A DNA stretch of 64,000 nt from an uncultured Actinomycetes bacterium. Its GTDB lineage: Bacteria; Actinomycetota; Actinomycetes; Nanopelagicales; Nanopelagicaceae. Below, in pieces: positions 6,045 through 30,741 of the stretch. Made by a program: the position numbers and the translations under genes. The notes below the pieces were generated by a model. It searched no databases, had not been told where the DNA came from, and saw nothing but the letters and a program-made list of their open reading frames with translations. The DNA lies in the NCBI GenBank assembly GCA_903834515.1, contig CAILJM010000036.1:62001-126000 (forward strand), read 5' to 3'. The stretch's first letter is position 1; each line of letters begins with the position of its first letter.

Positions 6045-6638
6045 ATGTTTCAACTCCCACATTTCTTTGCCCAACATTCAAGGCGAATCATCGCTATTGG
6101 GGCGATTACGCTCTCACTCCTTGCCGCATTCGCGTTAGCAGGTGCTTCACAGAACACCTCATCGATATGGGCCGCTGCTCATCAACTCGCCCCTGGTGCC
6201 ACGCTTCATGAAAGCGACCTCATTCAAGTGAACGCATCACTCGGTACGAATTCAAAATATTATTATCCGAGCACATCACGTTTGATAGGAAATGTTCTCA
6301 CTCGTACTGTTGGTAGTGGTGAATTCATTCCACTTAATGCTCTTGCCCAGGCTTCATCGGCTACTGATCTTCGTCAGCTTCCACTCGGCATTGAGAGAAG
6401 TGACTTACCGCCCGATCTGATGGCAGGTGAACGTGTTGATCTCTATGCACAACCGAAGGATCCGGGCCAATCCGCCGAGCTTGTCGCATCGGGAATTCAT
6501 ATTCAAAGCGTCGATAATAAATCACGGGATCTTGGTGGCGCCGTTACGGTGCTCTTCCTTCTCCATGATCGAGATGTATTAGGAGTCATCGATGCACTCG
6601 CTTCAAACAGAATTGTGGTGGTGCGAGATGCGCTCTGA
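6045..6638 (+). CDS. SAF-domain membrane-anchored protein (CpaB/RcpC-like)
   Basis: 197 residues with one N-terminal transmembrane helix (about 14-33) and a SAF domain starting at APGATLHESDLIQVNASL. The fold is seen in the Flp-pilus assembly protein CpaB/RcpC and in antifreeze or sialic-acid proteins. The gene overlaps the next by 11 nt, so the two are translationally linked. SAF-domain plus MinD-like pairs are common beside secA in actinobacteria, often without a complete Tad pilus locus; no pilin, secretin or secretion ATPase is seen nearby. A role in extracytoplasmic assembly is inferred only. Confidence 0.7.
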   Translation: MFQLPHFFAQHSRRIIAIGAITLSLLAAFALAGASQNTSSIWAAAHQLAPGATLHESDLIQVNASLGTNSKYYYPSTSRLIGNVLTRTVGSGEFIPLNALAQASSATDLRQLPLGIERSDLPPDLMAGERVDLYAQPKDPGQSAELVASGIHIQSVDNKSRDLGGAVTVLFLLHDRDVLGVIDALASNRIVVVRDAL

Positions 6639-7760: not shown

Positions 7761-9227
7761 GTGTCATCACGATATCCAGTCGATGCAACAGCGCTGACTC
7801 CCGATGATCAAGAGCGCATAAGTGAACTTATCGCCGAATGGCAATTGCTATCTGACCTCTCTTTTGCAGATCTCATTCTCTGGGTCCCAAAAAGGAAAGA
7901 TTATTTGAATTGGCCAACGGGCCATATTGCAATTGCACATACTCGCCCTACAACTGCCGCAACTGTATTTACGCACGATCTTGTTGGAAGAGAAATTAAT
8001 TGGGGAGATAATCCGCGAATCGATCAAGCGCTCTCCCAAGGTGAGATTATTCGTGACACCGAACCCGAGCAGATCGGCGAACTTCTCATAAAAGAGGAGA
8101 CGGTGCCTGTCCTCTTCAATGGCCACGTCATTGCCGTGATCTCGCGCCATCGGGATGCTGTACAGATGCGTTCGAAGTCGCGTCTGGAGATTAACTATCG
8201 GGAAATTGCACACAAGGTCTATCGAATGGTTGCCGAGAGCACCTTTCCGGTAGCCGGGAACATCTATCGCAGTGAATCCGCGCCTCGCGTAGGCGATGGG
8301 CTTCTCAGGCTTGATGGCAATGGCGTTGTGATGTACGCCAGCCCAAATGCGAGATCTGCGATTAGTCGCGCAGGTTGGTCTGGCGAGATTGAGAATCAAA
8401 ATCTTGGCTCGGTCTTCTCGGCAATCGATAATGGATCTCTTCCTACGGATGAGCCATGGTCTCTAGTAGTGAGTGGAAGAGATCTTCGACGAGATGATTT
8501 TGATAATGGGAGAGCCGTACTTGATCTTCTTGTCATCCCTATTATCGAAGGCGGCGATCGAATCGGTGCGATTGTCCTGGTGCATGATGTAACCGAATTG
8601 CGCAGACAGGATCGGGCACTCATCACCAAGGATGCAACGATTCGTGAAATCCACCACCGAGTTAAAAATAATTTACAGACAGTTTCGGCGCTCCTTCGAT
8701 TGCAGTCCCGGCGGGTTGAAGATCCAGTCGCCTCTGCAGCCTTAGCCGAAGCCGTCCGCAGAGTCGCCTCAATCGCCATCGTGCATGAGACCCTTTCTGG
8801 TTCCTCGGCAGAAGTTGTCCTCTTTGATGAGGTCTATGACCGCATTGTGCATAATGCGATTGAGTTGAGTTCCCGTCCAGTCACACTTTCAAAGGTCGGT
8901 GAATTTGGTAATTTTGATTCAAAGATTGCCACACCGCTCGCACTCGTGATAACTGAGTTAATTCACAATGCACTCGAACATGGTCTTGAGTCATCGGGGG
9001 ATTCGCTGAGCATCGATATCAGCCATACAGAGAACGAATGCATCGTGGTGGTGAGTGATAACGGCGTTGGACTTCCCATGGGATTTGATCTCGAGAATTC
9101 ATCTAACCTCGGACTCCAGATTGTTCGTACATTGACTGAAAATGAATTAAAGGGCAGTATCAAACTCACTCGGGTGGGGGATGCAACAGAAGCTGCACTC
9201 CGCTTCCCTCATGGAAAGGCACAATAA
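7761..9227 (+). CDS. pdtaS: Sensor histidine kinase PdtaS-like
   Basis: 488-residue soluble kinase. An N-terminal GAF-like domain (about 1-160) is followed by a PAS domain (about 180-285). The HisKA_2-type phosphoacceptor region reads IREIHHRVKNNLQTVSALLRLQSRR and the HATPase domain contains ITELIHNALEHG and VSDNGVGLP. This layout matches actinobacterial PdtaS, which signals to the ANTAR RNA-binding regulator PdtaR. PdtaR is not in the window. GTG start after GCGAGG. In many relatives a whiB gene lies next door; here dienelactone hydrolase follows after 1 bp. Confidence 0.88.
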   Translation: MSSRYPVDATALTPDDQERISELIAEWQLLSDLSFADLILWVPKRKDYLNWPTGHIAIAHTRPTTAATVFTHDLVGREINWGDNPRIDQALSQGEIIRDTEPEQIGELLIKEETVPVLFNGHVIAVISRHRDAVQMRSKSRLEINYREIAHKVYRMVAESTFPVAGNIYRSESAPRVGDGLLRLDGNGVVMYASPNARSAISRAGWSGEIENQNLGSVFSAIDNGSLPTDEPWSLVVSGRDLRRDDFDNGRAVLDLLVIPIIEGGDRIGAIVLVHDVTELRRQDRALITKDATIREIHHRVKNNLQTVSALLRLQSRRVEDPVASAALAEAVRRVASIAIVHETLSGSSAEVVLFDEVYDRIVHNAIELSSRPVTLSKVGEFGNFDSKIATPLALVITELIHNALEHGLESSGDSLSIDISHTENECIVVVSDNGVGLPMGFDLENSSNLGLQIVRTLTENELKGSIKLTRVGDATEAALRFPHGKAQ

Positions 9228-27612: not shown

Positions 27613-28836
27613 ATGAAACGCGTTGACGGAGAGCAGCTCAAAAAAGTATTTGCATCGCTTCCCAAGAACCCGAGAGTCTTGGTCTCAGGAAATTTTGGAA
27701 CCCCTAAGGAGTTACTCGCCCTCTTTGACTCGGTTGTGCCTGAGTACACGCTCCATATGCTCAATGCTCAGCCTGGAATCCCAGATCGCCCTGGAGTGAG
27801 GTACGAGACTGCTTTCGTTGGTCTTGGTATGCGTGGATCAGAACGGCTCAACTACATTCCATCCCGTCTCTCACTACTGCCGGTAATGCTCCGAGATGAA
27901 TTGGCTCCGGATGTTGTTTTGTTACACACCTCAGAACCAAGGTTCGACACCGTCTCACTGGGTATTGAGGTAAATATCCTTCCCGCTGCTATTGAGTCAG
28001 CCCGCGAGCATGGCGGACTCGTTGTAGCCCAAGCAAATGCCAACATGCCGTATACCTATGGTGACGCGCAGGTTTACGAGAACGAGATCGACTTTCTCTT
28101 CACTCATGAAGAGCCCCTCAATGTCCATACTCCAGCGCCGATATCGGATATTGCCCATAACATCGGCTCAAAAATTGCAGAACTCGTTCCATCCGGATCA
28201 ACGCTCCAGTTAGGGATCGGGTCAGTGCCAGATGCCGTCGTTGAAAGAATGACAAATCGAAAAGAACTTCGCATCTGGACCGAGATGTTTTCAGATGGCG
28301 TACTCAATCTTGAAAAAGTTGGCGCACTCGATACCGAAATTCCCATTACCGCCTCATTCATCTTTGGCTCCAACGAGCTCTACACATGGTTACATATGAA
28401 TCGGCGGGTTCGCATGCTCCGTACCGAGAAGACAAACGATCCATCATTGATCGCCAAACAAGCGAAGATGACATCGATCAATGCGGCGCTTCAGGTTGAC
28501 TTACTCGACCAAGCAAATGCTTCGCGGGTACGCGACAAGATCTATTCGGGTTTCGGTGGTTCGACAGACTTTATTGTCGGCGCCCTTCACAGTCGAGGAG
28601 GAAAGTCTTTTATGACGCTTCCTTCCTGGCATGCAAAGACAAATACCTCTAAGATTGTTCCGATGATCACAGAAGGGGTTACGAGCTTCCAGCACTCATA
28701 TGTCGTCACCGAGCAAGGTATTGCAACCTGCTTTGGTCACTCAGAGTCCGAGCAGGCTCAAAATCTCATTAACTTTGCCGCTCATCCTGATGCGAAACCC
28801 GCGCTACGTGCGGCAGCGTCGAAGATGGGTCTCTAA
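27613..28836 (+). CDS. Acetyl-CoA hydrolase/transferase family protein
   Basis: 407 residues, two CoA-transferase domains. QLGIGSVPDAVVERM is followed by WTEMFSDGVLNLEKVG, with the Glu likely to form the CoA thioester, then GFGGSTDFIVGA. Family members move CoA between acetyl-CoA and acids such as 4-hydroxybutyrate, or hydrolyse acetyl-CoA. A weak -10 (AAGAAT) lies 6 nt upstream of the ATG. A link to amine/GABA breakdown upstream is possible but unproven. Confidence 0.88.
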   Translation: MKRVDGEQLKKVFASLPKNPRVLVSGNFGTPKELLALFDSVVPEYTLHMLNAQPGIPDRPGVRYETAFVGLGMRGSERLNYIPSRLSLLPVMLRDELAPDVVLLHTSEPRFDTVSLGIEVNILPAAIESAREHGGLVVAQANANMPYTYGDAQVYENEIDFLFTHEEPLNVHTPAPISDIAHNIGSKIAELVPSGSTLQLGIGSVPDAVVERMTNRKELRIWTEMFSDGVLNLEKVGALDTEIPITASFIFGSNELYTWLHMNRRVRMLRTEKTNDPSLIAKQAKMTSINAALQVDLLDQANASRVRDKIYSGFGGSTDFIVGALHSRGGKSFMTLPSWHAKTNTSKIVPMITEGVTSFQHSYVVTEQGIATCFGHSESEQAQNLINFAAHPDAKPALRAAASKMGL

Positions 28837-28839
28837 AAG

Positions 28840-29076
28840 CTAGTTAATGAAGGCGTAGGCGAGGGCGATAAGCCCAATGATGAACCAGGCTAGGCGAACG
28901 CTCTTTTTGTGTAGTGAGGGCTGTAGCGATGGCACAAAAGTCGAGAGCAGTAATAGTGAGCCAGGAATCACGATAGCCAGGCTATGAATTGCGATATGTG
29001 GTTGTGCTCGTTGGTAATCCCAATTAATTAATCCGGTTGCGATCATTGCATAGGCCCACATGCGAAGGTTATTCAT
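28840..29076 (-). CDS. Small two-helix membrane protein
   Basis: 78 residues with hydrophobic segments near 32-49 and 60-76. GAGAGG precedes the ATG by 9 nt. It converges on the CoA-transferase gene, 3 bp apart. Not recognised. Confidence 0.6.
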   Translation of the reverse strand: MNNLRMWAYAMIATGLINWDYQRAQPHIAIHSLAIVIPGSLLLLSTFVPSLQPSLHKKSVRLAWFIIGLIALAYAFIN

Positions 29077-29102: not shown

Positions 29103-29138
29103 TAAAAATGGGAGGCATTGATTATGCCTCCCATTTTT
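29103..29138 (-). terminator. Bidirectional-looking terminator
   Basis: AAAAATGGGAGGCA / TGCCTCCCATTTTT with a 7-nt loop. It follows the rhodopsin remnant on the minus strand. Confidence 0.9.
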
Positions 29139-29155
29139 ATTACTAACTCTTTGCC

Positions 29156-29355
29156 TTAGTGAGCGTCTGCCATGCCTTCAGCCGCTGACTTCATACGAGC
29201 GATCTTGAAGATTGTTAGACCGAATACACACTTTGCGAGTACATCCGCGATTGTGTAACCAATCTGACGATCTGTGAAGAGTGATGCCATCTGGCTCATT
29301 GAAGGATTCTTCACGAGGATTGGGATTATTTCGCTGCGAGAGTTAACCTCAAAAA
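29156..29355 (-). pseudogene. C-terminal remnant of a microbial rhodopsin gene
   Basis: On the minus strand an open frame ends in TAA at 29156-29158 and translates, over its last 60 or so codons, to a segment containing QIGYTIADVLAKCVFGLTIF and then KIARMKSAAEG. This matches helix G of type 1 rhodopsins: Asp four residues before the Lys that would bind retinal (ADxxxK), then FGLxIF, as in proteorhodopsin and actinorhodopsin. Helices A to F are absent; upstream the frame runs into the DUF4389 gene. The longest ATG product would be 47 residues (from 29299). A terminator follows. It looks like the decayed end of an actinorhodopsin gene; short expressed use cannot be excluded. Confidence 0.7.
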
Positions 29356-29940
29356 TTAAAGACCGAAGGATGGATACTCGTCGGAGACGAGGGCAACTGC
29401 ATATCCGTAGACACGGTTCCAGTAATCAATTGTTCCGAGCGCTGTCATTGCAGCCCATTCAGGCATGGTGCCTGTGGCCGCAGTAATAATCCAAGCAAGG
29501 ATCGTGGTAACTATCGTCAACAGAAGATAGATGACTCCTACGATGTAGAGGGGGATTGCGAAGATCCACTTAACCAGCGGGAGTCCGCGACTCAGTGTCG
29601 CACCACCTTCAACATCAGGGAATATCACTGCGATATTTTCATTGCGCTCAATCGAAGGAAAATCATCTGTGAGCAAGAGCGCATACGCTGCAACTCGTGT
29701 GCTGAGCTCCATCATCGCGTGATTGAATGTGAGTGCATAACTCGGATAGATACCCCGGAAGAGAAGAGCCATGACGACGGGTGCGGTGATCACTATTGTC
29801 GAGATACCCCAGTGGCTCATCTGGCTAAAGGCTGCAACAAATATCGCAACTGGTGCAACCAAGATCCAACGAAAGAGAACGGTCTGTCGGTTTCGATTGG
29901 TTAATTGAACGTCAATATGGGTTTCAACCTGAGTGCTCAT
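29356..29940 (-). CDS. DUF4389 membrane protein
   Basis: 194 residues. DUF4389 family features: FRGIYPSYALTFN, LTDDFPS and a closing EYPSFGL, with about four hydrophobic helices (25-42, 48-65, 125-148, 150-165). Function unknown. TAGAAT ends 6 nt before the ATG with no ribosome-binding site. Its stop is next to the rhodopsin remnant, so a recombination joint may lie there. Confidence 0.85.
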   Translation of the reverse strand: MSTQVETHIDVQLTNRNRQTVLFRWILVAPVAIFVAAFSQMSHWGISTIVITAPVVMALLFRGIYPSYALTFNHAMMELSTRVAAYALLLTDDFPSIERNENIAVIFPDVEGGATLSRGLPLVKWIFAIPLYIVGVIYLLLTIVTTILAWIITAATGTMPEWAAMTALGTIDYWNRVYGYAVALVSDEYPSFGL

Positions 29941-29946
29941 GCCCTG

Positions 29947-29952
29947 ATTCTA
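29947..29952 (-). promoter_or_regulatory. -10 element, leaderless DUF4389 gene
   Basis: TAGAAT on the minus strand ends 6 nt before the ATG at 29940. Confidence 0.6.
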
Positions 29953-29979
29953 GGACGGGTAGAGACGGGTGAGGACGGA

Positions 29980-30741
29980 TTAGAGCACTTTGGAGAGAAA
30001 ACTCTTCGTTCGCTCCTGAGTTGGATTGCTTAAGATCTCGACCGGCTTGCCTGCTTCAACGACGACCCCGCCATCCATGAAGACAAGAGAATCCGCAACC
30101 TCACGCGCAAAGCCCATTTCGTGAGTTACAACGATCATTGTCATTCCACTGGCGGCGAGTTCCTTCATGACATCCAGAACTTCACCGACCAACTCTGGAT
30201 CAAGGGCAGATGTCGGCTCATCAAAGAGCATAAGTTGCGGTTTCATAGCCAGGGATCGCGCTATCGCCACACGTTGCTGCTGTCCACCAGAAAGGTGTGC
30301 CGGGTAATGATAAAGCTTTTCAGCGAGTCCAACCCGAGCTAATAACTTCTTGCTTTCGACTTGGGCATCACTTGTATTGATACCTTGGACGCGCACCATA
30401 CCGACCGTGACATTTTCTAGTGCGGTCATATGTGGGAAGAGATTAAATTTCTGGAAGACCATTCCGATGCCACTTCGCTGTGTTGCCGCCTCGCGTGCCT
30501 TCAATTCGTAGAGTTTTCCAGCATGCTCTCGATAACCAATAAGTGTGCCATCAACGGTGATACGTCCAGAGTTAATTTTCTCAAGGTGGTTGATACAACG
30601 CAGGAAGGTTGATTTACCGGATCCAGATGGGCCGACTAGGCACATCACTTCACCGTGCGCTACTTCAAGGGATATGCCACGCAGGACGTGGTTACTACCA
30701 AATGACTTATGTACTTCTTCCGCAATCACCATGGGAGTCAT
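29980..30741 (-). CDS. Polar amino-acid ABC transporter ATP-binding protein
   Basis: 253 residues, GlnQ/HisP-like. Walker [11 protein letters not shown]-loop region [12 protein letters not shown], signature [12 protein letters not shown] and Walker [13 protein letters not shown]. Its ATG overlaps the permease stop (ATGA). Third gene of the operon binding protein, permease, ATPase. Confidence 0.95.

Follow-up and report, generated by a model that had tools for sequence, protein, structure and literature searches.

A replaced retinal module and the stump of its actinorhodopsin gene in a Nanopelagicaceae genome

The window considered here is the whole 64,000-nucleotide stretch that was analysed, part of one contig from an uncultured member of the Nanopelagicaceae whose genome (G000) is represented by a single draft assembly of one strain (1.48 Mb in 39 contigs, 94.8% complete). 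Near its middle, a small membrane-protein gene, a hairpin, the tail of an actinorhodopsin gene, a DUF4389 gene and an ABC transporter gene follow one another (Table 1). Read on the minus strand, positions 29156-29329 give IIPILVKNPSMSQMASLFTDRQIGYTIADVLAKCVFGLTIFKIARMKSAAEGMADAH, then a stop codon; within this reading, 29156-29326 is the 3' end of an actinorhodopsin gene, with 56 codons and a stop, including the helix G with its Asp-x3-Lys spacing. A first-pass annotation, made from the letters of the DNA, had placed a helix-G peptide on this strand, and it is found there. The interval proposed for it (29156-29355) holds as far as 29326, whereas the remaining 29327-29355 is not rhodopsin, and its length, given as 47 residues, has to be corrected to 52 residues from the first GTG or 56 homologous codons.

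Table 1. Features at the former retinal-module site, with their positions in the window
Feature	Position	Strand	Basis
78-aa membrane-protein gene, intact, follows actinorhodopsin in relatives	28840..29076	-	synteny; hydrophobicity judged by eye
Terminator-like hairpin after the rhodopsin gene, also in relatives	29104..29140	-	folding, z -6.35
Actinorhodopsin 3' remnant: end of helix F, helix G with IADVLAK, basic tail, stop	29156..29326	-	homology
Short non-rhodopsin stretch, breakpoint to DUF4389 stop codon	29327..29355	-	homology to four relatives ends at 29326
Replacement segment, 653 bp, contains the DUF4389 gene	29327..29979		synteny and nucleotide alignment
DUF4389 gene, 194 aa, in the gap left by the retinal module	29356..29940	-	PF14333, 34.3 bits
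ABC transporter ATP-binding gene, conserved neighbour past the lost module	29980..30741	-	synteny, alignment

The identity of the remnant was examined by searches with its 52-residue part. Among PDB entries, 32 sequences were returned at E values up to 10, nearly all of them rhodopsins by name, and the best solved structure was 9hfk (E 1.9e-10), aligned to helix G. The segment IADVLAKCVFG of the remnant aligns with helix G of solved rhodopsins, and the retinal lysine of the D-x3-K arrangement is present, DxxxK being referred to as the retinal-binding motif in one published account (PMC6794327). When 60 genomes were searched (its own and 59 relatives), matches were obtained in 26, its own included; within the genus, 21 of 31 other genomes matched, with E values down to 1e-28, and the best match in a relative was the intact actinorhodopsin of G015, at 94% identity over 52 of 52 residues. 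The earlier reading of a rhodopsin relic with its D-x3-K helix G preserved is therefore well founded. The Pfam model Bac_rhodopsin scored the fragment below threshold, at 15 bits (E 0.017) where 24.6 is the cut-off and at 12 bits when the genome was searched, and NCBIfam models gave nothing for it, results which are put down to its shortness. In kind, site and neighbours, the tail agrees with the G015 gene and thus with the actinorhodopsin (ActR) of acI/Nanopelagicaceae, but it retains only the last 56 of 257 codons, without a start and without helices A to F. Instead of the seven helices (about 257 aa) of a functional actinorhodopsin, 56 codons are left, with the DUF4389 gene upstream.

An intact 257-aa actinorhodopsin occupies the same site in four close relatives (G015, G003, G016 and G012), which substantiates the earlier suggestion that helices A to F were lost. 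In all four, the gene order is the 78-aa gene, rhodopsin, blh and two genes with lycopene-cyclase domains. The blh product cleaves beta-carotene to retinal. Beyond the cyclases, the ABC transporter follows directly in G015 and G003, as in the window, and a gene further along in G016 and G012; the Blh and the cyclase pair of G015 were named by NCBIfam models with scores above their cut-offs. In nucleotide alignments of the window with these relatives, homology stops at 29326 in all four and resumes at 29980 (G015, locus L077) or 29981 (G003, locus L085), the two with the transporter at that place. Between these points, the window has 653 bp where L077 has 2410 bp and L085 2399 bp, and the roughly 2.4 kb in the relatives comprises blh, crtYc, crtYd and rhodopsin from its first codon to codon 201 or so. 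Considering that 2.4 kb of the relatives is replaced by 653 bp, the retinal module has disappeared as one unit, probably through a single event. The loss of the rhodopsin had been correctly recognized and its extent understated, since blh and two cyclase genes are gone as well. A complete rhodopsin interrupted by a frameshift, named in the first-pass annotation as one of the findings that would overturn it, is excluded, as the DNA upstream of 29326 is the DUF4389 gene and has no rhodopsin homology.

On the other flank, a CoA-transferase-like gene (27613-28836) lies between the 78-aa gene and a neighbour that we take to be a sugar-kinase-like gene; L077 has no such gene there, and the two flanking genes adjoin. 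Together with the replaced module, this indicates a site that exchanges genes on both sides.

No donor was found for the piece with the DUF4389 gene, whose nearest homologue is 79% identical. In four genomes of the set (G013, G026, G024 and G022), DUF4389 adjoins a gene of 492 to 493 aa. A gene of that type is also present in the window, at 7761-9227, without DUF4389 beside it. A shift of DUF4389 from this usual place within the same genome was considered and rejected, because the clade mates G015, G003 and G012 have no DUF4389 beside their copies of the 492- to 493-aa gene. At E 1e-10, DUF4389 is absent from the G015, G003 and G016 genomes, and G012 has one elsewhere, 53% identical. DUF4389 is thus more probably a gain at the rhodopsin site than a gene that has moved.

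The rest of the genome was searched for the missing functions. Neither another rhodopsin-family match nor, with the Blh family model PF15461, any Blh was found in the 94.8% complete assembly, so that the retinal source on which a functional actinorhodopsin depends was not detected by that search. No heliorhodopsin was found either, although 4 of the 38 genomes searched have one. A rhodopsin moved elsewhere in the genome and a heliorhodopsin serving as replacement are both rejected on these grounds. What has been kept, on contig C23, is crtB with one adjoining lycopene-cyclase pair, and crtI- and crtE-like genes, named from their sequence, lie near it. The four intact relatives each have two cyclase pairs, one close to crtB and the other within the rhodopsin module. 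With one pair and the crt genes kept and Blh absent, the genome has lost its dedicated retinal module and probably retains general carotenoid synthesis. The comparison with related genomes and the search for a retinal pathway had been proposed in the first-pass annotation, and both bear out its reading: an intact ortholog stands at the same site in four relatives, and no functional copy exists elsewhere in the assembly.

These observations make it highly probable that an actinorhodopsin gene survives here as a stump and that the retinal module was lost by replacement, most simply through one recombination event. The ancestral order would have been the 78-aa gene, actinorhodopsin, blh, the crtYc/crtYd lycopene-cyclase pair and the ABC transporter. 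In the replacement, a stretch of about 2.4 kb that began within rhodopsin codon 201-202 and reached the end of crtYd would have given way to 653 bp with DUF4389; the pump, the retinal-forming enzyme and the cyclase pair of the module would thereby have disappeared together, while the general carotenoid genes stayed elsewhere. A terminator beside the relic had been noted earlier, and a strong hairpin is indeed found 3' of the rhodopsin gene, both in the window and in each of the six relatives that were folded (z from -5.2 to -8.4), its stem letters varying among genomes with pairing kept. It went unlisted in a simple consensus terminator scan, probably because its T run lies inside the stem. 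Since it is now downstream of DUF4389, this old rhodopsin terminator would be able to end the DUF4389 transcript, in whose 3' part the tail, which has no start signal of its own, most likely lies untranslated.

It is very unlikely that the join between DUF4389 and the rhodopsin tail is false and that a chimeric assembly conceals a module still present as a whole. Draft assemblies in the genus do often break at rhodopsin modules, and the rhodopsins of several relatives are cut by contig ends. However, such an artefact would take two wrong joins separated by 653 bp, no other part of the genome contains the remainder of the module, and the contig is 130 kb long with the gene order of relatives on both sides.

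Replacement of the module in this genome has counterparts elsewhere in the genus. In four other genomes (G027, G026, G025 and G001), the same module is broken in place with leftovers of its ends, although at breakpoints other than those in G000. The break in G027 connects crtYd, near residue 66, with about residue 178 of the rhodopsin, and a similar tail stays in frame; relative to the sister genome G006, whose blocks are 92-94% identical, 2.2 kb is missing and the join has a 7-base overlap, which suggests microhomology. The corresponding join in G026 links crtYd, again near residue 66, to about residue 78 of the rhodopsin. The crtYd genes of G026 (L078, 9069-9137) and G027 (L082, 9117-9227) are thus broken at almost the same place, with rhodopsin breakpoints 100 codons apart, and the near-identical crtYd breakpoint may reflect either a shared weak point or chance. 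The blh of G025 breaks off near residue 153 (L221, 1851-2354) and the crtYc of G001 near residue 41 (L222, 664-882), both inside contigs and followed by unrelated genes; neither genome has a rhodopsin match, and both retain the opposite end of the module, not the rhodopsin tail. By tree and neighbours, the losses in G000 and G027 are separate events. Given these four further genomes, erosion of the module is recurrent in the genus.

Among 80 loci from a contig scan, which may omit the genome of the query itself, the rhodopsins truncated in continuous DNA were L101 (G026) and L106 (G027), and the remaining short ones start no more than 28 bases from a contig end. Contig ends also make three genomes uninformative, as the module of G018 and G031 and the rhodopsin of G002 run into them. 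G004, G013, G014 and G017 have neither rhodopsin nor Blh and only one cyclase pair, and no rhodopsin, Blh or cyclase pair was found in G005, whose genome is 63% complete.

To place the loss in time, a tree of rpoB was used. From 30 genomes asked, 20 matched and 10 gave no match at the threshold, G012 among the latter; G018 was left out as too short, and 19 rows were used. This tree makes G016 the sister of G000 (98/93), in a starred group to which G003 and G015 also belong. Because all three are intact, the loss falls on the own branch of G000. The remnant has no private residue among 57 codons compared with 75 other tails, and its median pN/pS is 0.18 against the 24 nearest tails, which include the G027 relic (L106) and among which values run from 0.18 to 0.31. 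In a five-genome comparison, 9 changes are private to G000; 7 are synonymous and the other two lie in one codon. The tail is thus undecayed, in line with the earlier suggestion of a probably recent loss. In terms of sequence, either the cut may be young relative to the split from G016 or the tail may still be constrained, and the data fit both.

The tail might still be made as a short one-helix peptide that carries the retinal lysine and is unable to pump, a reading we consider highly improbable. The open frame, a pN/pS like that of intact genes, the predominance of synonymous private changes and the in-frame tail of G027 speak for it. On the other side, the first possible start (GTG, 29314) is an internal Val codon of the intact gene and has no visible ribosome-binding motif before it, whereas the 78-aa gene has GAGAGG; with no Blh, a source of retinal is not obvious; the conservation is accounted for just as well by recent loss; and G025 and G001 have kept the opposite end of the module. 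That a hydrophobic stretch should look like helix G by chance, as the sub-threshold Pfam score might have suggested, has practically no likelihood and is refuted by the 94% identity to an intact actinorhodopsin at the same site and the DNA homology up to 29326. A broader conjecture, in which the tail would remain under selection either as a 3' region and terminator taken over by DUF4389 or as a one-helix peptide, and in which the genus would repeatedly discard the module as costing more than it yields in some lakes, is regarded as improbable.

Loss of the pump as part of a replaced module leaves its small neighbour in place. The 78-aa gene, whose homologue in L077 lies at 6131-6364, occurs in 20 of 31 other genomes of the genus, all 20 with a rhodopsin (tail) match, and in none of 9 same-genus genomes without one; it is intact after pump loss in both G000 and G027. 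Its product matched nothing consistent in Pfam and nothing in NCBIfam, and may be viewed as a candidate accessory of actinorhodopsin.

Patchiness of rhodopsin and blh is already known in the acI group. According to Kang et al. 2017 (PMC5301498), rhodopsin occurs in all four acI genomes studied, retinal synthesis is complete in only two tribes, and rhodopsin without blh is widespread. Both cases are eroded retinal pathways from one bacterial group; in the published one, rhodopsin stays and blh is missing, whereas in G000 rhodopsin, blh and the cyclase pair of the module are all missing and a stump is left. Actinorhodopsin is described in a 2025 paper as also scrambling phospholipids without retinal (PMC12805836), which would explain why an opsin could be kept without blh; in G000, even the opsin has been lost. 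No rhodopsin stump in Nanopelagicaceae was reported in the titles and abstract openings searched. The genome is an unusually clear case of recent loss, not an unprecedented one.

Rhodopsins are believed to support streamlined lake bacteria where food is scarce, and lineages that discard the pump reveal the conditions under which it brings no profit. The species of this one genus, several of which have the module broken at different points, form a set of recent losses that can be compared with light, depth and lake chemistry.
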